A DNA stretch of 64,000 nucleotides, from contig NZ_CP021912.1 in the NCBI RefSeq assembly GCF_003264115.1, forward strand, positions 744,001 through 808,000, given 5' to 3'. A program made the translations under genes and the position numbers. The notes below the pieces were generated by a model. It did not search any database, was not told the origin of the DNA, and was given only the letters and a program-made list of their open reading frames with translations. This stretch comes from Erythrobacter sp. KY5. GTDB lineage: Bacteria > Pseudomonadota > Alphaproteobacteria > Sphingomonadales > Sphingomonadaceae. Below, piece by piece: positions 23,531 through 51,303 of the stretch (positions within the stretch are counted from its first letter, which is position 1; each line of letters starts with the position of its first letter).

Positions 23531-24564
23531 AGGCCGAGCGCTTTCAGCTGGTCATAGGCCCGGCGAACCTGTTTGGCATGAGCCTCGCTCCCCAGGTTCG
23601 GCGCGCTGTCCAGGCTTGAGAGCATGTCGGAGATCGGAGCGCGCGAGCTGGGCGCAGCGAGCGACAGGGTTGCCGATGCGCTGATCGTCGGGCGGTTTCG
23701 CCCCGTCAGCACCGGCGGAGTGCGAGGTTCGAAAACGGCCTCGTCTGCAATCATGTAGGGCGGGCGGACGGCATCGGCCGCAGCAAGCGAGGCTGGGGTG
23801 TAGCTCGGCGGCATGCCCGGCGGCACATCAGCGCGGGCGCGCTCAAGCTTGGCGCTGAGGTAGTCCATCACGCCTGCAAGGCTGCGCGGTGCGCCGTTTC
23901 TCTCATAGAAAACCGGCTGATTTGCAGCAGCGGGACGCCGGAACAGGGCAGCAGCGCTCTGGCCGGGATCCTGCGCCATTGCAGACAGGAACCGCCCGGC
24001 CCCACCCGCTCCGAGAAAATGGGCCAGATAAAGCTCGCCGTGATCGGGTTGCCGGCCAAGGATCGGGGCAAGATGCGCGCGATTATCTTCGGCCAGCCCG
24101 GCCGCCATGAGCGAGGCCACCTGCGGATCGTTGCGCATGTCGAGGATCGCCTCGCGCGCCTGCGGGTCTGCGACATAGGCCGTGCCGCCGGGCGCCGTGT
24201 CGATTTGTGCGGCGATATTGCCGAGGCCGAAGCGCGCGCCATGGCGCTGCATGGTGCCAAGCCAAGTGCTCTCGATAAACTGGTAAAGGCCGGTGGCGCT
24301 CGACGTTCGCGCGCGCGCCGTCGGGTTCATCGCCGATTCAACCTGCGCCTGCGCCACGAGAAAGTCGAAATCGACGCTGGTCGCCTGTGCCGCGTTCGCG
24401 ATGGCTTCTTCGACGCTGGGCCGAACGGGCACGCTGGCATCGAATGTGACCTGTGCGGCGATCTGCCGCGTCGCCCCTTGCCGGGGTTGCGCTGCATGGT
24501 GCACGCGCGCAGCCTGTTCGAAAGAGCTTCGGATCGCGGAACTGGGAATGGATTGCGGGTTCAC
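23527..24564 (-). CDS. Flagellum-associated lytic transglycosylase (SltF-like)
   Basis: A 345-residue protein with a GTG start. Residues about 60-190 form an SLT-type lytic transglycosylase domain: FLVAQAQVESAMNP holds the catalytic Glu and SSATGLYQFIESTWLG the substrate-binding turn. A Pro/Ala-rich C-terminal region of about 150 residues follows. Lytic transglycosylases cut peptidoglycan strands, here presumably so that the rod can cross the wall, because the gene leads flhA-fliA and the window's FlgJ lacks an enzyme domain. In Rhodobacter a separate SltF does this job. There is no Sec signal peptide, so it may leave through the flagellar export system. Confidence 0.88.
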   Translation of the reverse strand: MNPQSIPSSAIRSSFEQAARVHHAAQPRQGATRQIAAQVTFDASVPVRPSVEEAIANAAQATSVDFDFLVAQAQVESAMNPTARARTSSATGLYQFIESTWLGTMQRHGARFGLGNIAAQIDTAPGGTAYVADPQAREAILDMRNDPQVASLMAAGLAEDNRAHLAPILGRQPDHGELYLAHFLGAGGAGRFLSAMAQDPGQSAAALFRRPAAANQPVFYERNGAPRSLAGVMDYLSAKLERARADVPPGMPPSYTPASLAAADAVRPPYMIADEAVFEPRTPPVLTGRNRPTISASATLSLAAPSSRAPISDMLSSLDSAPNLGSEAHAKQVRRAYDQLKALGL

Positions 24565-24628
24565 AGGTGGCCTCGCTTGCTGCTTCTCTCAGGCTCCGGA
24601 CTGTTCGCGGAGCTCTTGAGGAAGGTTC

Positions 24629-24645
24629 AGCAAGCCTCGTGCCAA
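24629..24645 (-). promoter_or_regulatory. Sigma-54 promoter of the sltF-like/flhA/fliA unit
   Basis: Read leftward, TTGGCACGAGGCTTGCT has GG and GC exactly ten bases apart. It matches the consensus TTGGCACG-N4-TTGCW at every fixed base. It lies in the 107-base gap before the transglycosylase start, 65 bases upstream of it. A perfect copy of the putative enhancer palindrome lies about 270 bases upstream. Confidence 0.85.
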
Positions 24646-24671
24646 ACACGGTTAACGCGCGGGCGAAGCTC

Positions 24672-24995
24672 TCAGGCGATCGTGGCGCCGCGCACCCGGT
24701 AAGCGGGACGCGCCGCGCCGAGCGCCTCAAGCCGGGTGGTGATGTTGGCAGCCAGCAGGTTGCGCACCCGGCGGTTTACCTCGTTCAGCGACCTTGCGGC
24801 TTCTGCCAGATCGCGCACTTGCGGGTCGAGCGCCTCGGGCCCGAAGGGTGCAATCGCATCGCACAGCTTTTCCTTGTCGCGAGCGACCTCGGTCAGCGCA
24901 TCGGCATCAAGTCCGGCAAGCGCTTGCCGCTCGGCTTCGAGGACGGCAATCATCTGCCGCAGATTGCCGGTGAGGCTGCTTGCCGGCTCGCTCAA
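24672..24995 (-). CDS. flgN: Flagellar chaperone FlgN
   Basis: A 107-residue all-helical cytosolic protein, read from a TTG whose last bases overlap the flgM stop (TTGA). FlgN proteins bind the C-termini of FlgK and FlgL and deliver them to the export gate. The sequence is a run of amphipathic helices (NLRQMIAVLEAERQALAGLDADAL, then VRDLAEAARSLNEVNRRVRNLLAANI), with the conserved NRRNxxLL-like segment typical of the family. The position directly after flgM confirms the call. The coding region contains the palindrome at 24914-24929. Confidence 0.82.
   Translation of the reverse strand: MSEPASSLTGNLRQMIAVLEAERQALAGLDADALTEVARDKEKLCDAIAPFGPEALDPQVRDLAEAARSLNEVNRRVRNLLAANITTRLEALGAARPAYRVRGATIA
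24914..24929. promoter_or_regulatory. Palindrome CGGCAAGCGCTTGCCG, candidate enhancer site
   Basis: A perfect 16-base palindrome inside flgN, identical to the one upstream of flgB (28348-28363). It lies about 270 bases upstream of the sigma-54 promoter at 24629-24645. Further TTGCCG half-sites follow at 24964 and 24979. A binding site for the sigma-54 activator encoded at 42803 is the simplest explanation. Confidence 0.55.
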
Positions 24996-25291
24996 CGTTC
25001 GATCCCGAAACTGAGCTGTGCTGCGATTATCGCATCGGCAATTTCCGTTGGCACGAGCGGGTAGCGCCCGTCCTTGAGCGCTTCGCGAATTTGCGAGACG
25101 CGATCATCGTCGACCGGTGCGCTTGCGGTGTCGAGCGATCCGCTGACCTCGATGGAGACGCCTTGCGCAGCGGGCTTTGCGCCCGTCTGATCGCTCTCGC
25201 TGGTCGGTGGTCGGCGTGCGGCCATGTCGGTGTCGGACAGAGCGCGCGGCGCTGTCACGGACTGCAATTTGCTCAGTTCGAAAGAGGGCAT
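24992..25291 (-). CDS. flgM: Anti-sigma-28 factor FlgM
   Basis: A 99-residue protein that binds FliA until the hook is finished and is then exported through it. The N-terminal half is polar and probably unfolded. The C-terminal third (DDDRVSQIREALKDGRYPLVPTEIADAIIAAQ) is the FliA-binding helical segment typical of FlgM, with the RVxxIRxAIxxGxY pattern. It sits between flgA and flgN as in many proteobacteria. A possible sigma-28 promoter lies in the 77-base gap before it. Confidence 0.9.
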   Translation of the reverse strand: MPSFELSKLQSVTAPRALSDTDMAARRPPTSESDQTGAKPAAQGVSIEVSGSLDTASAPVDDDRVSQIREALKDGRYPLVPTEIADAIIAAQLSFGIER

Positions 25292-25308
25292 GGTGCTTCT
25301 CCGGGTGG

Positions 25309-25336
25309 TATTCTCGTGGTTCAGAACGGCTGGACA
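25309..25336 (-). promoter_or_regulatory. Possible sigma-28 promoter before flgM
   Basis: Read leftward, the flgA-flgM gap has CTTAAAGG, a 14-base spacer from TAAA, then GCCGTTCT. Compared with the enteric FliA consensus TAAA-N15-GCCGATAA, the -35 part is exact, five of eight -10 bases match and the spacing is one short. This would place flgM under its own target, as in enterics. The match is weak and the coordinates are approximate. Confidence 0.3.
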
Positions 25337-25368
25337 GCGTCGCCTTTAAGTCCCCGCATCGCGATTAT

Positions 25369-25917
25369 TCACGGGGCAGGGATAATCGCGAGGCCGGGCC
25401 GCTCGATCCGGGCGCGGACTGGCTGCGCATCGCGCGCAGTGCGCACGGCAATCCATTCGCCCGGCCTCCCGCTCTCCAGCGCCTCGCCGGCCTGCTGTAC
25501 GGTGAAACCTCGTCCACGCACCGCAATCGTAAGCGGGTCGCCGCGTGCGACCACGGGTGCGATTTCTTCGGCCATCGCGGGGGTGTGGGCGGCGATGAAA
25601 ATGCGCCATGGCTGTGGCCCCGCGCAGCTTACCGCAAGGCTCGTTCTGGCCCTGCCGTGCCAGCTTACGCCGAGGGGAGCGGCGCATGCTGCCAGTTTCA
25701 GCCGCCGGTCAGCGGGCATCCGCGCGCTGCCCTCCTGACCGATGGAAATGCCGGTAAATTCGACCACGGCGCGGTCTATCGCCGCCGGATCGGTGTGGAC
25801 TGCACCAGCGCCGGATTGCGCGCTGGCTGGCGCGGTGGCGGCCAGGACACCGGCAAATGCGCCAGCGATCATGATGTGTGTCCCGCGATGCCTGCATGTT
25901 GAGGGAATGAGCTTCAT
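25369..25917 (-). CDS. flgA: Flagellar P-ring assembly chaperone FlgA
   Basis: A 182-residue periplasmic chaperone that helps FlgI assemble into the P ring. The start is the ATG at 25915-25917 after AAAGGCG; it gives a signal peptide ending at PASAQS (residue about 33). The C-terminal SAF-like domain is seen in RIFIAAHTPAMAEEIAPVVARGDPLTIAVRGRGF and GEALESGRPGEWIAVRTARDAQPVRARI, the pattern conserved in FlgA. It heads a flgA-flgM-flgN unit behind the sigma-54 promoter at 25970-25986. Confidence 0.92.
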   Translation of the reverse strand: MKLIPSTCRHRGTHIMIAGAFAGVLAATAPASAQSGAGAVHTDPAAIDRAVVEFTGISIGQEGSARMPADRRLKLAACAAPLGVSWHGRARTSLAVSCAGPQPWRIFIAAHTPAMAEEIAPVVARGDPLTIAVRGRGFTVQQAGEALESGRPGEWIAVRTARDAQPVRARIERPGLAIIPAP

Positions 25918-25969
25918 TGTTCGCCTTTCGACTGGCCATAAGAGGTGAGCTTCGTGTGCGGTGATACGA

Positions 25970-25986
25970 AGCAAACGCCATGCCAA
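25970..25986 (-). promoter_or_regulatory. Sigma-54 promoter of flgA-flgM-flgN
   Basis: Read leftward, TTGGCATGGCGTTTGCT has GG-N10-GC spacing, with the -24 (TTGGCA) and -12 (TTTGC) elements near consensus. It lies 53 bases upstream of the flgA start. No good copy of the enhancer palindrome is seen within 150 bases. Confidence 0.82.
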
Positions 25987-26089
25987 TCTGTGCGCTAAGG
26001 GACATTGCGATGCGCACCAGAAGCCGGATTTAACTTCGCAGCCATAGTCAGTTCGCCATTGCCTGCCATGCCGAGGACACGACGCCGCG

Positions 26090-27148
26090 ATGCCCACAAA
26101 ACCGCTTCTCAAGCCGCTCGACAATCCACCGATGAGCCGAGCGCGCGAGGCGCGCCGCGAGCTGCTCGAACGCATTTCCGATTTCATCATGAAGCATGAT
26201 CTGAACGTGACCGGCGCCAATCTGGCCGCAATCGGGACCGCGCTTTCGGGCACGAATGTCGCTCTTGGCGAGGCGCTTGCCCAGCGAGAGATCGCGCGCG
26301 AACCGATAGACCAGCGCTGGCTCGATACGGTGATGCGCCTTGATCCGGAGACGGGCAAGCGCATGAATGAACTCGAACAGCTGATGGACAAGATGGAATA
26401 TGCGCTGATGCGGTTCGCGCAAACGGCCAAGTCTGCGCAGGACGAAACCTGCGAACATCGCGGCGCATTGGGAGCGCAGATCGAACGGATGAAAACGACC
26501 GGCGATCCAAATGCGGGCAATCGCGACGTGAGCCGGGTGATCGATCTGTCGCGCGCGGTGCTCGACCGGCTGAGCGAGGCGGAGAGCGCCATGGAACGCA
26601 GCCAGGCCGAAACCGACAAACTGCGCTCCAGTCTGGCCGAAGCCCGGATCGAAGCCGATGTCGATCACCTCACCCGGCTTCCCAATCGCCGCTCGTTCGA
26701 GCGCCAGCTTATCGCAGCCTCGCAAAAGGTGGATCAGGATGGCGCGAAGCTTTGCGTGGCGTTTTGCGATGTCGACAATTTCAAGATGGTCAATGATCGC
26801 CATGGCCACGATGCGGGCGACCGCGTGCTTGTCGCTATTGCCGGGACGTTGAACGATCATGCCTGCAACGACTGCTTTGTCGCGCGTCATGGAGGCGAGG
26901 AATTCGTGCTGCTGCTTCACGATGTCGATCTTGAAGGGGCTTGGCGCAAGCTCGACGCGGTCCGGCGGGCTCAGGGGCTCAAGCGCATGGTCAATCGCGA
27001 GACCGGCAAATCCTTCGGCAAGATCACGTTTTCCGGCGGTATCGCGCAGGTGCAAGGGGCACACGATGCCCGCGATGCGCTCGCTCGCGCCGATGCGGCG
27101 CTGTATCAGGCCAAACGCGAAGGTCGCGATCGTATCTGCACGGGCTAG
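26090..27148 (+). CDS. GGDEF diguanylate cyclase
   Basis: A 352-residue cytosolic enzyme that makes cyclic di-GMP. The N-terminal 180 residues are helical and end in a coiled-coil-like stretch; no known sensor domain is seen. The cyclase domain starts at DVDHLTRLPNRRSFE (about 190), has CDVDNFKMVNDRHGHDAGD and the active-site RHGGEEF (GGEEF at 268-272). The inhibitory RxxD site that would lie at 259-262 reads CNDC, so product inhibition is probably lost. It is divergent from flgA, and its stop shares CTAG with the stop of the ExbD-like gene. The location suggests control of motility by c-di-GMP. Confidence 0.93.
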   Translation: MPTKPLLKPLDNPPMSRAREARRELLERISDFIMKHDLNVTGANLAAIGTALSGTNVALGEALAQREIAREPIDQRWLDTVMRLDPETGKRMNELEQLMDKMEYALMRFAQTAKSAQDETCEHRGALGAQIERMKTTGDPNAGNRDVSRVIDLSRAVLDRLSEAESAMERSQAETDKLRSSLAEARIEADVDHLTRLPNRRSFERQLIAASQKVDQDGAKLCVAFCDVDNFKMVNDRHGHDAGDRVLVAIAGTLNDHACNDCFVARHGGEEFVLLLHDVDLEGAWRKLDAVRRAQGLKRMVNRETGKSFGKITFSGGIAQVQGAHDARDALARADAALYQAKREGRDRICTG

Positions 27149-27567
27149 GGCTTGTTCGACAGGATCGGCGCATCGTAGGCAAGGCTTGCGTGAAGGTCGC
27201 TCTCCTGACCGCGGGCGATCACGACGCGCACGGCATAACCCGCCTCTTCCGCCTGATTGGCCAGCCTGCGCGCAGCCTCCCACGCCGCTTCCCTGCCCTC
27301 GCGTCCATATTGAGCATAGACCGTGACGGTGGAACGCGTGTCGAAGGGTTGGTCAGACAACCATTCGCGCAAGGTCGGCCCGGCAGCCGACGGCCTGAAA
27401 AGCGCTTGCGATGGGGCGAATTGCGGCTCTTGAGATGACGAGAGTTCCCCGTCGACTGCCGGCTTGGCGTCCTCGTCGTTAGCCAATCCCGACAAGGTCA
27501 CGAGAAACAGAATCAGCGCGAGATCCGCCAGCACAAGCTGCCAGCTCTGAGGCGCGGCGGGGCTCAT
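27145..27567 (-). CDS. ExbD/MotB-like single-pass membrane protein
   Basis: A 140-residue protein starting at the ATG 27565-27567, which overlaps the preceding stop (ATGA). One N-terminal membrane helix, LVLADLALILFLVTLSGLA, has an aspartate near its start like the proton-binding Asp of ExbD/TolR/MotB. The remaining 110 residues would be periplasmic and are short and acidic, without a recognisable OmpA-like peptidoglycan-binding domain. With the ExbB-like gene it would form a proton-driven stator-like pair. It is not the main flagellar stator, which is encoded at 36490-38314. Confidence 0.65.
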   Translation of the reverse strand: MSPAAPQSWQLVLADLALILFLVTLSGLANDEDAKPAVDGELSSSQEPQFAPSQALFRPSAAGPTLREWLSDQPFDTRSTVTVYAQYGREGREAAWEAARRLANQAEEAGYAVRVVIARGQESDLHASLAYDAPILSNKP

Positions 27568-28229
27568 GCGGCGTCTCTCAATCGCGATGCCTTGCGCGTT
27601 CGATGCGGGCCGGTCTCCTTCAGGAACCACGCCATCATGGCTGCGCGCGCGCGCTCTTCAGCTTCGCCGCGCCGTTCGATTGCCCGCGCCAGGGGGAAGT
27701 ACAAAAGGTGCGCGCTAAGCACGCCATAGAGCGTGGAAAGCACCGCGCTGGCGAGCGAGCTCATGATCGTTTCGGCTGCCTGGGTCGCTGTGCCGGGCAT
27801 GAGCTGCGTGATGGCAAACAAGGTGCCGACAAGGCCGAAAACCGGTGCCAGCTCGCCTGCAACCTCGAACAGCTTGGCCCCGCGTGCCCTGTCGGCCACG
27901 CGCTTTTCACGCGCCTCCTGCTCCGCCTCGTGAAGTTTTTCGACATTGCCCGTTGCAAGAAAGCGCTCGACCCACCCGGCCGTGTCAGGGTCGCAAGGCA
28001 GATCGGTTTCGCTGCAAAGAGCCCCGTTTTGCCTGATGCTCAGGGCACATCGTGCGAGCGCTGCGCGGTTGGCCCCTGCATCGAAACCGCGATGCCATAG
28101 CCGCAAGAGGGCGCGCGCGCCGCTTGCAATCCCGCTTCGACCGCTGCGTGCGGCTGCGGCGGCCCATGTTCCCGCGATGACGATGGTGATCGCTGACACG
28201 TCGATCAGGGGCGCAAGGGCGCTCATCAT
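27564..28229 (-). CDS. MotA/TolQ/ExbB-like proton channel protein
   Basis: A 221-residue inner-membrane protein. The ATG at 28227-28229 follows GGGAG and gives an N-terminal membrane helix (LIDVSAITIVIAGTWAAAAA). After a cytoplasmic loop come two more helices, LFEVAGELAPVFGLVGTLFAITQLM and IMSSLASAVLSTLYGVLSAHLLYFPLARAIERR. The second pair is the typical TolQ/ExbB/MotA channel region (GLxGTLxG.., then S-T-L-YG). It diverges from flgB, with the intergenic region holding the flgB promoter. The role could be a second flagellar stator, an ExbBD-like energiser, or something local to this locus. Confidence 0.75.
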   Translation of the reverse strand: MMSALAPLIDVSAITIVIAGTWAAAAARSGRSGIASGARALLRLWHRGFDAGANRAALARCALSIRQNGALCSETDLPCDPDTAGWVERFLATGNVEKLHEAEQEAREKRVADRARGAKLFEVAGELAPVFGLVGTLFAITQLMPGTATQAAETIMSSLASAVLSTLYGVLSAHLLYFPLARAIERRGEAEERARAAMMAWFLKETGPHRTRKASRLRDAA

Positions 28230-28325
28230 TCCTATTGTCTCCCGCGTGATCGACCGGTTTGGGCTCGACGCGAAGAACGGCTTCGAACGCGCGGGATTAA
28301 GGTGATGAGCGTGCTGACCAATGAA

Positions 28326-28373
28326 GGGCACCGCCTTGCCGTCGCCCCGGCAAGCGCTTGCCGCCGTTTGCCG
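28326..28373. promoter_or_regulatory. Enhancer-like cluster upstream of flgB with a perfect 16-bp palindrome
   Basis: CGGCAAGCGCTTGCCG fills 28348-28363. A degenerate copy ending CTTGCCG lies at 28326-28341 and a right half TTTGCCG at 28367-28373. The group lies 45-90 bases upstream of the -24 element. The arrangement is what is expected of binding sites for a sigma-54 activator. Confidence 0.6.
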
Positions 28374-28416
28374 GTCCGCCTGACCCATGCGCCCCGTCCT
28401 GCGGTTTTTCAGGCAC

Positions 28417-28433
28417 TTGGCATGCATCGTGCA
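28417..28433 (+). promoter_or_regulatory. Sigma-54 promoter of the flgB operon
   Basis: TTGGCATGCATCGTGCA has GG and GC ten bases apart and a good -24 element; the -12 (GTGCA) differs by one base from TTGCA. It lies 77 bases before the flgB start and should drive flgBCDEF and probably more. Confidence 0.8.
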
Positions 28434-28509
28434 GAGTGAGCGACCAGACAGGCGACAAGCCGGGCGAAAACCCGGTTCTCACCGTTCAGCAGGATGCGAA
28501 GGCGCGATC

Positions 28510-28863
28510 ATGTCAGAGACGATTTTCGGAATTCACGGTGCCGCGCTCGAACTGCGCTCGCAGCGCATGGGTGTGATCGCATCGAACATCGCCAATGCGG
28601 GAACACCCGGTTTCAAGGCGCGCGACATGGATTTCAACGCGGCGCTCGATGCGCGGTTGGAGACGCGGCGCGGCGAGCCTGCAGCCTTTGGCGAACCCGA
28701 TCTGCTTTATCGCCGATCTGCCATGCCAACGCTGGACGGGAACACCGTCGAACTTTCTCGCGAGCAGGTCGCCTTTGCTGAGAATGCGCTGGCTTACTCA
28801 GCCACGCTCAGTTTCGTGCAGGGCAAGGTCAACACGATCACCCGCGCGCTGAAGGGAGAATGA
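28510..28863 (+). CDS. flgB: Flagellar proximal rod protein FlgB
   Basis: A 117-residue rod subunit, exported by the flagellar apparatus. The ATG at 28510 starts MSETIFGIHGAALELRSQRM; an upstream in-frame start is unlikely because it covers the promoter. The N-terminal axial motif ASNIANAGTPGFKARDMDF and the C-terminal ALAYSATLSFVQGKVNTITRALKG are typical. It is first in the rod-hook operon, and flgC begins three bases after its stop. Confidence 0.95.
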   Translation: MSETIFGIHGAALELRSQRMGVIASNIANAGTPGFKARDMDFNAALDARLETRRGEPAAFGEPDLLYRRSAMPTLDGNTVELSREQVAFAENALAYSATLSFVQGKVNTITRALKGE

Positions 28864-42540: not shown

Positions 42541-42761
42541 TGGTCAAACTCCCATAGGGTCAGAGAAAATAGTCACCGCTCGAGCGACACTGCGCCGCCG
42601 TTGCTGAGAGGTAGAGCGACCATCGGGGCGGGAGTTTAAGGGGGCCGTTCACAGATCGGGGTTCCCGCCCGTCCGAAAGGGAGCCCAGCCGCGCGCGTTC
42701 ATAGGACAAGCCCTAAGGGCGGCTACGCAGGCTTAAATTTTCTCTATCTTGGACGTGAGGG

Positions 42762-42790
42762 CGGCAAATCGTTTCCACCAGAACTTGCCG
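42762..42790. promoter_or_regulatory. Degenerate enhancer-like sites before the activator gene
   Basis: CGGCAAATCGTTTCCA (42762-42777) and CCACCAGAACTTGCCG (42775-42790) each match 11 of 16 bases of the palindrome CGGCAAGCGCTTGCCG, one through its left arm and the other through its right. They lie directly before the start of the sigma-54 activator gene, so autoregulation is possible. Confidence 0.35.
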
Positions 42791-42802: not shown

Positions 42803-44131
42803 ATGACAGGCCTGAATACGACCGTGGTATCCCCGTTCCCGGTTGAATCGAACGTTTCGCGGCCCGCAAGCTTCGCTCGGACGCAGGCATCGCATGCGGC
42901 TTTGCTCGATTCAACAATGCCGCTTCTGTCCCAAGCATGGCAAAAAGATCGTGTGTCGATTGGCCCAAGCGACCAGTTTGCCGCGTCGAAGGCGCCGAGG
43001 CCGGCGGGCGCGGTGGCGGTCGATCTGGTCCACGCGCCCGTGGCGGCGCTCTGCCGAAATCAGGCAGGGCGCGTCACGCTTGCCTACAACCCTGCCCATA
43101 GTGCAGCGGCTCAGCCAGCGCTTCTCGCAAGTGCAGCGCCTCCCGGCCTGCCGATTGCCGGCGACACCGAAAGCCTTGCCCTCCTGACACTGGCCGAGCG
43201 CATCGCGAAAAGCGCCATTCCCGTCCTGCTGGAAGGGCCGACCGGAACCGGCAAGGAAGTGATGGCGCGCTTCGTCCACACGCTTAGCGATCGTTGCTCA
43301 GGCCCTTTTGTTGCGGTCAATTGCGCAGCCATGCCCGAAGCGATGCTGGAAGGATTATTGTTCGGTCATCGCAAGGGCGCATTCACCGGGGCGGGTGAGG
43401 CCCGCGAAGGGCTATTCCGGGCGGCGGATGGAGGTTCGCTTCTGCTCGACGAAATCGGCGAATTGCCGCTTGCTCTGCAGGCAAAATTGCTGCGCACTTT
43501 GCAGGAAGGCGAGGTGCTGCCGCTTGGCGCGACAAAGCCTGTGAAGGTCGACGTGCGGATTATCGCAGCAACCAATCGCACGCTTGTTGACGAAGTGGCG
43601 AGGGGCCGGTTTCGCGAAGACTTGCTTTACCGGCTCAATGTCTTCCCCCTCACCATTCCCGCCTTGCGCGACAGGCGCGGCGATATCGCTCCGCTGGCGT
43701 TCGGAATGTTGCTTCGCCATGCCTGTAAGCCGGGCGGCCCGACCTGGATATCAGGTCAGGCGATGGCATTGCTTGAGGCGCATCCCTGGGCCGGCAATGT
43801 GCGAGAACTGGAAAACGTCATTCGCCGCGCGATCCTGCTTGCGGGCAAGGAGCCGCGCATTGGCAGCGAGCATATCGTCTTCGACCAGGCCGCCCGCGGA
43901 GTTGAGAAACCGGTGCACGCCTGGCCCATGCCCGACATCTCGGGCGCGCCAAGTTCGCTGTCCGACGTCGCGTTTAAATCCGAAGCGCAGGCGATCCTGA
44001 ATGCGCTGCAAACCCATGGTGGGCACCGGGGCAAGACGGCGCGAAGCCTTGGAATATCGGAGCGCACCTTGCGCTACCGGCTGGCGTCGATGCGCGAATC
44101 CGGGCTGATCGTCGCTGGAGGTGAGGCATGA
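42803..44131 (+). CDS. Sigma-54-dependent flagellar activator (FleQ/FlbD type)
   Basis: A 442-residue enhancer-binding protein that would drive sigma-54 RNA polymerase at the early flagellar promoters. The ATG at 42803 follows AAGGTGG; a TTG at 42749 is less likely. The first 125 residues are low-complexity with no receiver domain. The AAA+ domain has LEGPTGTGKE (Walker A, 145-152), GAFTGA (192-197, sigma-54 contact), GGSLLLDEIGELPL (Walker B) and RFREDLLYRLNVFPL. A Fis-type HTH (HRGKTARSLGISERTLRYRLASM) ends the protein. The stop is coupled to fliE (ATGA). FleQ and FlbD differ in the N-terminus, and I cannot choose between them. Confidence 0.93.
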   Translation: MTGLNTTVVSPFPVESNVSRPASFARTQASHAALLDSTMPLLSQAWQKDRVSIGPSDQFAASKAPRPAGAVAVDLVHAPVAALCRNQAGRVTLAYNPAHSAAAQPALLASAAPPGLPIAGDTESLALLTLAERIAKSAIPVLLEGPTGTGKEVMARFVHTLSDRCSGPFVAVNCAAMPEAMLEGLLFGHRKGAFTGAGEAREGLFRAADGGSLLLDEIGELPLALQAKLLRTLQEGEVLPLGATKPVKVDVRIIAATNRTLVDEVARGRFREDLLYRLNVFPLTIPALRDRRGDIAPLAFGMLLRHACKPGGPTWISGQAMALLEAHPWAGNVRELENVIRRAILLAGKEPRIGSEHIVFDQAARGVEKPVHAWPMPDISGAPSSLSDVAFKSEAQAILNALQTHGGHRGKTARSLGISERTLRYRLASMRESGLIVAGGEA

Positions 44132-49176: not shown

Positions 49177-49648
49177 GCGCTCGCGCCTTAAGCTTGCAGG
49201 TCGGCAAGCAATGCTTGCCAACATTGCCCGCAGAGAGGCGATGACCGGCTATGCCGAGGCCGTGCGGGAGGAAGGGCGCAGCCACGCACTGGCAACGCGC
49301 AGCCGCCGGTTGCTTGACGATTATTCGGAAAGGCCGGGCGGCGCTTGTGCAGACGACTTGCGTGACCTTTTTGCGTTCAAGCACTCGCTCGGGATGGTTG
49401 CATCTCAGGCCGAGGAAGCGCGGCGCGATGCGGCTGAACAGTTGAACTGGCACTCGCAGGTTCTCGCCGCAGCCGCAGCGCGGGCAGACGCGTCCGACGA
49501 CCGGCTCAGTGCCGCGAGGCTCGCCTTTTCTTCAGCGCTGGAGAGACGCGAAGAGGAAACGCCTCGGCGTGTGGCACGCAAGTTGCAGTCTGAGGAAAAC
49601 GAAGCCGTGCACCAGGCTGCGGCACCAGACACCGGGAATTGCGCGTGA
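49169..49648 (+). CDS. fliJ: Flagellar export protein FliJ
   Basis: A 159-residue coiled-coil protein that couples FliI to the export gate. The sequence is almost wholly helical and charged (REEGRSHALATRSRRLLDDY, AAEQLNWHSQVLAAAAARADASDDRLSAARLAFSSALERREEE). Identity to known FliJ is low, so the call rests on the order fliI-fliJ-fliK. Its start carries a near copy of the enhancer palindrome and its end carries the sigma-54 promoter of fliK. Confidence 0.75.
   Translation: MRERSRLKLAGRQAMLANIARREAMTGYAEAVREEGRSHALATRSRRLLDDYSERPGGACADDLRDLFAFKHSLGMVASQAEEARRDAAEQLNWHSQVLAAAAARADASDDRLSAARLAFSSALERREEETPRRVARKLQSEENEAVHQAAAPDTGNCA
49203..49219. promoter_or_regulatory. Near copy of the enhancer palindrome in fliJ
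   Basis: GGCAAGCAATGCTTGCC is a 17-base inverted repeat whose arms GGCAAGC/GCTTGCC match the flgB and flgN palindrome; only the centre differs. It lies about 355 bases upstream of the sigma-54 promoter for fliK. Confidence 0.5.
49570..49587 (+). promoter_or_regulatory. Sigma-54 promoter inside fliJ for fliK and downstream genes
   Basis: TGTGGCACGCAAGTTGCA contains TGGCACG-N4-TTGCA with the exact GG-N10-GC spacing; every fixed position fits. It lies inside the 3' end of fliJ, 57 bases before the fliK start, so it would start a new transcript for fliK-L-M-N-O-P-Q-R and onward. Confidence 0.82.
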
Positions 49649-51303
49649 TCGACCTCACCCTTCGTCAGCTTGCCGGAAGCGCAAGCTATTCAATCCAGCC
49701 GGAACCGTCCTTTTCTAGCGGTCTTCAAGCGGACCTGTCGGTGACACAGGGCTTTGGAGGATTGCTTGAGGGCGCACTTGCGCGTGAGCCGATCGTGGAT
49801 GGATCCGACAATCCGGTTGATTTGGCCATCTCCATCATTCCCACGCAGGAGCCGAAACCCGGCAATATGCTTCCGCCTGCCGGAAAAACGCTGCCTGATG
49901 AAAGTGATGAGGCCGCTGGCGCGGGAGTGCCGCGCGTTGAGACGGTGATGCAGCTGGCAAATACGGTCGAGCGATCGGACCTGGAGGTCGTCCCGCCCAT
50001 CTCACGCGATCCTGTGCGCGAAGTGACCAGCCGGGAGCAGATGCCGGACCGCATGCCTCCGGGCAGAGAGCTTGAGCCGCCGCATCATCGGGTCAATGGG
50101 CCGGTTGTATCGACCCGACCTCCGCAACTGGATGCAGGGCCGACAGCGATTCCGGAAACAAGGCAGGGCAGGATCGATCCAGATAGCCCTGCAATTGAAT
50201 CTCACGCTGGGCCGCACGTTCGAGACCATAGGCATGTCGAGCAGACGCCGCTCAGGAAGGAACAATTGCTTGAGCCAGCCAGGAAGGCCGAAACCAGCTC
50301 CCCGCAAGCTGACACTACGCAGATGGCCAAACCGAACCACGCGCCAATCCTGAGCCAACAGGGCGCACCTCTTGCCGAGCCGGTGTCCCTTCGACCCATC
50401 GCCCAAACGCAAGAACTCGCAGAGCAGGCACCTTCGAAGTCCGGCATCGCCGAGCAGGTGGCAACGACTAGCATACAGCAAGAACCAGCCCGTTCCGGCA
50501 AAGCAGCTCCCCCAATGCCTCTCAAATCAAGGATAACCGAGGCTGCGAGAACCGAACACCGGGACCGAAGCGCTCCGCCAACGGCAATTGTCAGCGCTGT
50601 TGCTGCAACACTCGATAACGCCAAAAGCCCGGATGATACCACCGCGAGCAGGCAGAACTTCGCGGCTTCTCTCGACGCGTCGGGGTCGCAGTCCCCTGCC
50701 TCGATCTCGCAAGGCACATCCACGCTCTCACAAGCGGTGACGCAGCCTCAGCTGCACACCCAGATACCATCCCCGACCCATGCGAACGCGCCGCAACCGC
50801 TCACCGACATTCGTCATGAAAGCCGTCCGGCAAATGCGCTCGAAAGCGTGATCGATCACCTCACCGAGGCCCGCGAAACCGGGCGCGTCGCGAAGTCCGA
50901 GGTCACTCTTCGCCATCAGGAGTTCGGAGCGATCAATATGCGCTTCGAGGTCAGCGGGTTCGATCTTCGCGCGACCCTTTCCGCGCGCGATCCCGCCTTC
51001 GTCGCCGCCGCACAAATCGCTCTGGTCGATCGTGCCATCGCCGCCACTGGCGAAAGCGCCGGCGCTCAGTCTCAGCGCGGGCAAGAGCAATCGCAGGGGC
51101 AGCATGGTCAGCAATCGCAAACTGGACAGCACGGATCTCAGGGAGAGCCCCGATACGGGTCATCCCTTGGGTCAGGGCAAGGGTCGCCTCAACCATATTC
51201 GTCGCAAACCAAGGGCGGCGATGAAGAGGGTGACCTGATACCTGCACCTGCCACGCACGAAAGTGCCGGCGGTGCAGCGCAGGCAAGTGATCTGTTCGCT
51301 TGA
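49645..51303 (+). CDS. fliK: Flagellar hook-length control protein FliK
   Basis: A 552-residue export-substrate switch and molecular ruler. The start chosen is the GTG at 49645, which overlaps the fliJ stop; a TTG lies two codons earlier. The first 400 residues are Pro/Gln/Ser-rich and variable, as in the ruler part of FliK. The C-terminal hook-length domain is SVIDHLTEARETGRVAKSEVTLRHQEFGAINMRFEVSGFDLRATLSARDP. The tail after residue 475 is unusually rich in Gln, Gly and Ser and contains many QG/GQ steps. It lies behind its own sigma-54 promoter. Confidence 0.88.
   Translation: MIDLTLRQLAGSASYSIQPEPSFSSGLQADLSVTQGFGGLLEGALAREPIVDGSDNPVDLAISIIPTQEPKPGNMLPPAGKTLPDESDEAAGAGVPRVETVMQLANTVERSDLEVVPPISRDPVREVTSREQMPDRMPPGRELEPPHHRVNGPVVSTRPPQLDAGPTAIPETRQGRIDPDSPAIESHAGPHVRDHRHVEQTPLRKEQLLEPARKAETSSPQADTTQMAKPNHAPILSQQGAPLAEPVSLRPIAQTQELAEQAPSKSGIAEQVATTSIQQEPARSGKAAPPMPLKSRITEAARTEHRDRSAPPTAIVSAVAATLDNAKSPDDTTASRQNFAASLDASGSQSPASISQGTSTLSQAVTQPQLHTQIPSPTHANAPQPLTDIRHESRPANALESVIDHLTEARETGRVAKSEVTLRHQEFGAINMRFEVSGFDLRATLSARDPAFVAAAQIALVDRAIAATGESAGAQSQRGQEQSQGQHGQQSQTGQHGSQGEPRYGSSLGSGQGSPQPYSSQTKGGDEEGDLIPAPATHESAGGAAQASDLFA

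Follow-up and report, generated by a model that had tools for sequence, protein, structure and literature searches.

The palindromes of the flagellar cluster of Erythrobacter sp. KY5 are very probably enhancers (UAS) of the flagellar sigma-54 activator (bEBP) encoded at 42803, judging from sequence comparison across the 64,000-nucleotide window that we analysed (positions 744001-808000 of the 3.31-Mb single-contig genome) and its counterparts in related genomes. A sequence-only reading of the window had noticed a 16-bp palindrome upstream of flgB that recurs in flgN, and had predicted that this activator binds it; the palindromes are real, the observation is larger than first reported, and the proposed owner is likely also the right one, with strong indirect support from conservation across genera, from placement beside sigma-54 promoters and from the single spacing that is enriched. 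The exact 16-mer, CGGCAAGCGCTTGCCG, occurs at 28348-28363, upstream of flgB, and at 24914-24929, inside flgN, and an exact-match search of the 3.31-Mb genome found no third copy; an Rfam scan of 24500-28700 gave no match. The link between sites and protein rests on co-occurrence and position, and another conserved factor of equal distribution would fit as well.

To define the motif, we used the regions 5′ of flgB in 26 genomes with an activator ortholog; 39 dyads from these regions, with the query genome left out, yielded a symmetric 18-base PWM of the form CCGGCAA-N4-TTGCCGG. At least one GGCAA-N4-TTGCC dyad with no more than one mismatch is present upstream of flgB in 25 of the 26 activator-bearing genera, often as two dyads ~20 bp apart, and all but one of these 25 upstream regions also contain a clear -24/-12 promoter. 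The three best PWM matches of the 64 kb lie at 28347 (flgB, 23.1), 24913 (flgN, 23.1) and 24943 (flgN, 17.7), followed by 49859 (fliK, 12.3) and 42761 (activator leader, 9.3); three matches above 17.5 were reached in 0 of 60 first-order Markov resamples of the window (mean 0.1). The earlier list of sites is therefore borne out for flgB and for one flgN copy, but it had missed the second flgN site at 24943-24960, the fliK site and the activator-leader site.

The main N4 dyad, CCGGCAAGCGCTTGCCGC (28347-28364), is the putative flgB enhancer; it shares the top score of the window and is conserved before flgB at both family and genus level. Its degenerate partner, AGGGCACCGCCTTGCCGT (28325-28342), carries one mismatch and lies 22 bp from it, and a pair with this 22-bp spacing recurs upstream of flgB in many Erythrobacter relatives: all 29 usable closer relatives have a site there, which scores above 14 in 24 of them and usually belongs to such a pair. 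The sequence-only reading had described two degenerate copies of the palindrome; because of these pairs in the closer relatives, the first, GGCACCGCCTTGCC at 28327-28340, is accepted as real, with a conserved counterpart in most Erythrobacter relatives, while the other, after 28363, is a half-site only and was rejected. The -24/-12 promoter before flgB, which had been called good, exists as CTTGGCATGCATCGTGCAGA (28416-28435, + strand) and aligns with CTTGGCACGCATTCTGCAAC of the closest relative (NAP1), but it is weak in this genome, with a score of 8.6; an overlapping register, CAGGCAC..GC, scores -2.6. Downstream lies flgB itself (28510-28863, + strand; TIGR01396 FlgB over cut-off), predicted to be the first gene of the rod/hook operon. 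In one relative (G004, L084:5476-5537), an intact -24/-12 promoter, ACTGGCACGCGCTTTGCGGAA, is present upstream of flgB in three tandem copies 21 bp apart.

The spacer between the half-sites was examined by tallying GGCAR-Nx-YTGCC at every x from 0 to 10. Across 839 kb of flagellar sequence from genomes with the activator there are 90 N4 dyads, compared with 9-15 for the other spacings (9 for N3) and 2 for the reversed control, and N4 is the only spacing enriched there; a sigma-54 promoter lies within about 400 bp of 65 of 86 N4 dyads, versus 0-3 for each other spacing. At 44 fliX loci of other alphaproteobacteria, N3 accounts for 34 dyads, 31 of which fall within 350 bp upstream of fliX, while any other spacing reaches at most 8 and N4 reaches 3 (Fisher 2.6e-20 for the N4/N3 contrast between activator-bearing and FliX genomes). 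A separate set, 396 kb around flbD, holds 19 N3 dyads versus at most 6 of any other spacing (N4, 6), and a family member with both FliX and FlbD (G052) has two N3 and zero N4 dyads upstream of fliX. With N4 in activator genomes and N3 in FliX/FlbD genomes, the half-site is therefore common to both groups and the spacer, which differs by one base, tracks the activator; we infer that the N3 dyads are the sites of FlbD. Counts of N4 14-mers per genome, taken alone across the family, do not split activator-bearing from activator-less genomes; the location and spacing of the N4 dyads do separate them.

FliX (PF10768) is absent from the KY5 genome in a search that detected it in the positive control, Caulobacter vibrioides, and it is present in 6 of 59 family genomes and absent from 53. 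Two activator-bearing genomes, G006 and G022 (L281, L280), also carry FliX; in both, FliX and the activator are on separate contigs, and in G006 a further weak FlgB-like match is located near FliX, so that a second flagellar set of the FliX type seems to be present in each. On balance, we somewhat favor a history in which FlbD/FliX was replaced in sphingomonads by a receiver-less activator, with a uniform N3-to-N4 change at unchanged half-sites, so that spacing alone may separate both regulators (including in G006 and G022), and in which some enhancers of the new regulon became locked into flgN and fliK codons.

The activator (42803-44131, + strand), whose gene adjoins fliE, combines an AAA+ domain (Pfam Sigma54_activat, E 7.5e-64) with a Fis-type HTH (HTH_8, E 8.4e-11) and has no receiver domain: residues 1-120 match no Pfam family even at E values as high as 1, whereas FlbD controls from FliX-bearing genomes match Response_reg. 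The N-terminal 115 residues (42803-43150) are predicted to be folded, with helices, three strands and a long helix; a fold search for the identity of this domain was dominated by the AAA+ domain, to which the nearest solved structure is that of V. cholerae FlrC. The best named relative is from Erythrobacter sp. NAP1 (84% identity). The recognition helix, GISERTLRYRL, is invariant in this activator and reads GISIRTLRNKL in FlbD and GISPRTLRYKL in FlrC/FleR. In a midpoint-rooted tree with few outgroups, the activator forms a separate clade apart from FlbD with a support of 98. In Qipengyuania citrea (NZ_CP098495.1, L275-L276), the whole flagellar cluster with this activator resides on a 270-kb plasmid.

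Just before the activator gene lies a degenerate dyad, GCGGCAAATCGTTTCCAC (42761-42778); several relatives have GCGGCAAATCNTTTCCAC at the same place, and a site above 12 is found in 38 of 79 relatives. No sigma-54 promoter was found beside this leader dyad. Repression of early genes, fliF among them, has likewise been ascribed to FlbD and its ftr sites (PMC3930126), and by analogy the leader dyad is possibly an autoregulatory or autorepression site. A site of this kind is also what a repressor would use, and the genome carries six activator-like matches; one could thus assign all the dyads to a different regulator, either another bEBP or a global repressor acting on the flagellar cluster. We regard this assignment as unlikely, given that the sites are confined to the flagellar cluster and accompany sigma-54 promoters there, that N4 follows this activator as N3 follows FliX/FlbD, and that the activator gene is linked to fliE.

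Slightly less credible still is the proposal that the dyads are true ftr sites and the activator an FlbD ortholog, with the Caulobacter system unchanged. The sequence-only reading had pointed to a likeness with ftr sites, and this holds for the half-site, GGCAR/YTGCC in both; moreover, sites lie both upstream and downstream of promoters, and the best NCBIfam match of the activator by score is FlbD (NF050807, 311.9 bits). That score, however, is far below the cut-off of 750 and is confined to residues 118-438, and the likeness goes no further: the spacer is N4 in place of N3, neither FliX nor a receiver domain is present, and the activator falls outside the FlbD clade. Identity with the FlbD system is largely refuted by these differences.

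The second locus of the activator's predicted sites lies within a coding sequence. Two N4 dyads, at 24913-24930 and 24943-24960, are exactly 30 bp apart inside flgN (24672-24995, - strand; Pfam FlgN E 1.3e-6, at 29.4 bits just below the cut-off of 30.5), which adjoins flgM, and relatives keep the same 30-bp pair. The first encodes RQALA as CGG CAA GCG CTT GCC and the second encodes RQMIA; across genera, the two sites encode RQ(A/S)LA and RQ(M/L)(I/L/V)A with the codon pattern CGG CAR NNN NTT GCC. In 10 of 10 genera, both sites use CGG for Arg and GCC for Ala and have a T as third base of the codon preceding Ala, so that six constrained codon positions are invariant; the third-base T is kept even where the residue switches among Ile, Leu and Val. 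Codon choice is variable at the remaining Arg and Leu columns of FlgN, and CTT accounts for only 4-24% of Leu codons in these clusters. Under codon usage, invariance of this kind has a joint probability of ~1e-41, a value that assumes independent lineages and is therefore overstated; in one alignment, the degenerate columns of the sites are invariant in 5 of 5 cases versus 1 of 12 for the others (Fisher 0.001). Because the codons are invariant in all ten genera although CTT is rare, we read the pair as a dual-coding enhancer, that is, as conserved regulatory DNA inside the flgN coding sequence that would explain the synonymous codon choice. The residues concerned are themselves conserved in an FlgN helix, and the copies could in principle be by-products of a protein repeat, RQxxA, instead of DNA sites; this is very improbable in view of the synonymous positions (CGG in 10/10 twice, GCC in 10/10 twice, third-base T in 10/10), the column contrast just given, and the sigma-54 promoter that follows 280-340 bp on in relatives.

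In KY5, that promoter is TTTGGCACGAGGCTTGCTGA (24627-24646, - strand), which sits between flgN and the SLT-flhA-fliA genes and scores 22.6 on a matrix likewise built from relatives, the best of the window; it is one of six strict matches in the genome. The flgN dyads precede it by about 280 and 310 bp, and the same order of a 30-bp flgN pair and then a promoter before SLT is found in G014, G006, G009, G048, G041, G008 and G004. Flagellar loci of a second clade (G021, G031, G053) have a promoter before SLT/flhA, yet no adjacent site above 12. A further sigma-54 promoter, ATTGGCATGGCGTTTGCTTC (25968-25987, - strand; score 20.9), precedes a probable flgA, identified by its position beside flgM and by an annotated relative, and many relatives have a comparable promoter before the orthologous flgA position. 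No N4 dyad lies within 1 kb of the flgA promoter; the flgN pair, about 1.05 kb downstream, may serve it. A GGDEF gene (26090-27148) stands between the probable flgA and the motA/motB-like genes in this genome and in G041, and is not there in G014, G006 and G009.

At the end of fliJ, a strict sigma-54 promoter match, TGGCACGCAAGTTGCA (49570-49589, + strand), reads into fliK and is conserved in 57 of 65 relatives. The dyad associated with it, CCGGCAATATGCTTCCGC (49859-49876), is located within fliK about 290 bp downstream of the promoter; it is degenerate here, ranking fourth in the window, and has a possible partner 21 bp on (49880-49897; score 5.8). In 55 of the 65 named relatives, a dyad above 14 occurs in fliK 240-400 bp downstream of the promoter, often as two dyads 21 bp apart. 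The palindrome that the sequence-only reading had also counted in fliJ exists at 49203-49219, but its relevant dyad has a 7-bp spacer and is found in 0 of 65 relatives; it was dropped for its wrong spacing and lack of conservation, and chance accounts for it. Genome-wide, GGCAAGC-N0-3-GCTTGCC occurs four times, three of them within the window, against a window expectation of 0.01 and no occurrence of the reversed control. Exact N4 14-mers number nine, seven of them outside the flagellar cluster. Outside the cluster, a single match exceeds 17.5 on the N4 matrix, and it has no sigma-54 promoter; this best of the outside places, G000:C1:1450418 (22.4), falls within the reading frame of a methyltransferase and was discarded. 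That all the dyads are chance palindromes of a GC-rich genome, as nine 14-mers versus three for the reversed control might hint, has almost no probability, being refuted for flgB, flgN and fliK by cross-genus conservation, placement and spacer specificity.

We propose that a dimer of the activator's Fis-type HTH binds one CCGGCAA-N4-TTGCCGG dyad and that neighboring dyads, 18-30 bp apart, would aid assembly of the AAA+ ring. By looping, the bound ring would then contact sigma-54 RNA polymerase poised at three promoters: at that of flgB from the site 60 bp upstream, at that of SLT-flhA-fliA from the sites 280-310 bp upstream within flgN codons, and at that of fliK from the downstream site within fliK. 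The degenerate leader dyad, in its setting free of a sigma-54 promoter, probably lets the activator limit its own expression. Counting against the enhancer reading are the weak flgB promoter, the degenerate state of the fliK and leader sites in this genome, the flgA promoter with its lack of a nearby dyad, the second-clade SLT/flhA promoters that have no adjacent site above 12, and the seven exact N4 14-mers outside the cluster. If the proposal holds, the dyads would give a concrete candidate for the DNA code that the flagellar sigma-54 activator recognizes in a large, little-studied group (Erythrobacter, Novosphingobium and relatives), on whose activator our literature search found no paper. 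They may also represent a natural case of two related activator families that have half-sites in common and are set apart by one base pair of spacing, and of regulatory DNA kept inside protein-coding sequence across ten genera.

Several known systems resemble this one. The ftr/FlbD system of Caulobacter crescentus likewise has palindromes, located near middle-gene promoters, as the sites of a flagellar sigma-54 activator, and the half-site GGCAR/YTGCC, which lies here near flagellar sigma-54 promoters, is the same in FliX-bearing genomes. The N3 spacer of the FliX/FlbD genomes, which differs from N4 here, is taken from the loci counted in this work and not from a published ftr consensus, as the literature searched contained no text giving that consensus sequence; FlbD also has an N-terminal domain of receiver type and acts together with FliX, and both are absent here. 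The middle-gene activators FlrC/FleR of Vibrio and Pseudomonas share with the activator the closest AAA+ domain (FlrC), the sequence LGIS(P/E)RTLRY(K/R)LAxMR and a gene position beside fliE, but each contains a receiver domain and is paired with a kinase (PMC3930126). The midpoint-rooted tree, which includes only two gammaproteobacterial sequences, tentatively places the activator outside FlrC/FleR, and GGCAR/YTGCC dyads in one P. aeruginosa and one Aeromonas flagellar locus show no enriched spacing among these few sequences. In the Fla1 system of Rhodobacter sphaeroides, similarly, the fliEFGHIJ operon begins with another sigma-54 activator gene, fleT, the second of that system, and sigma-54 controls FlgM and FliA (PMC7277832); FleQ and FleT act as a hetero-oligomer (PMC7277832), whereas here a single activator carries its own HTH. 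The arrangement as a whole resembles that of a sigma-54 enhancer (UAS): repeated dyads at distances of 60 to 400 bp from -24/-12 promoters, in a cluster that also encodes a bEBP. Elements of this kind are known; what is new is the shift in spacing and the conserved, codon-embedded candidate enhancers.
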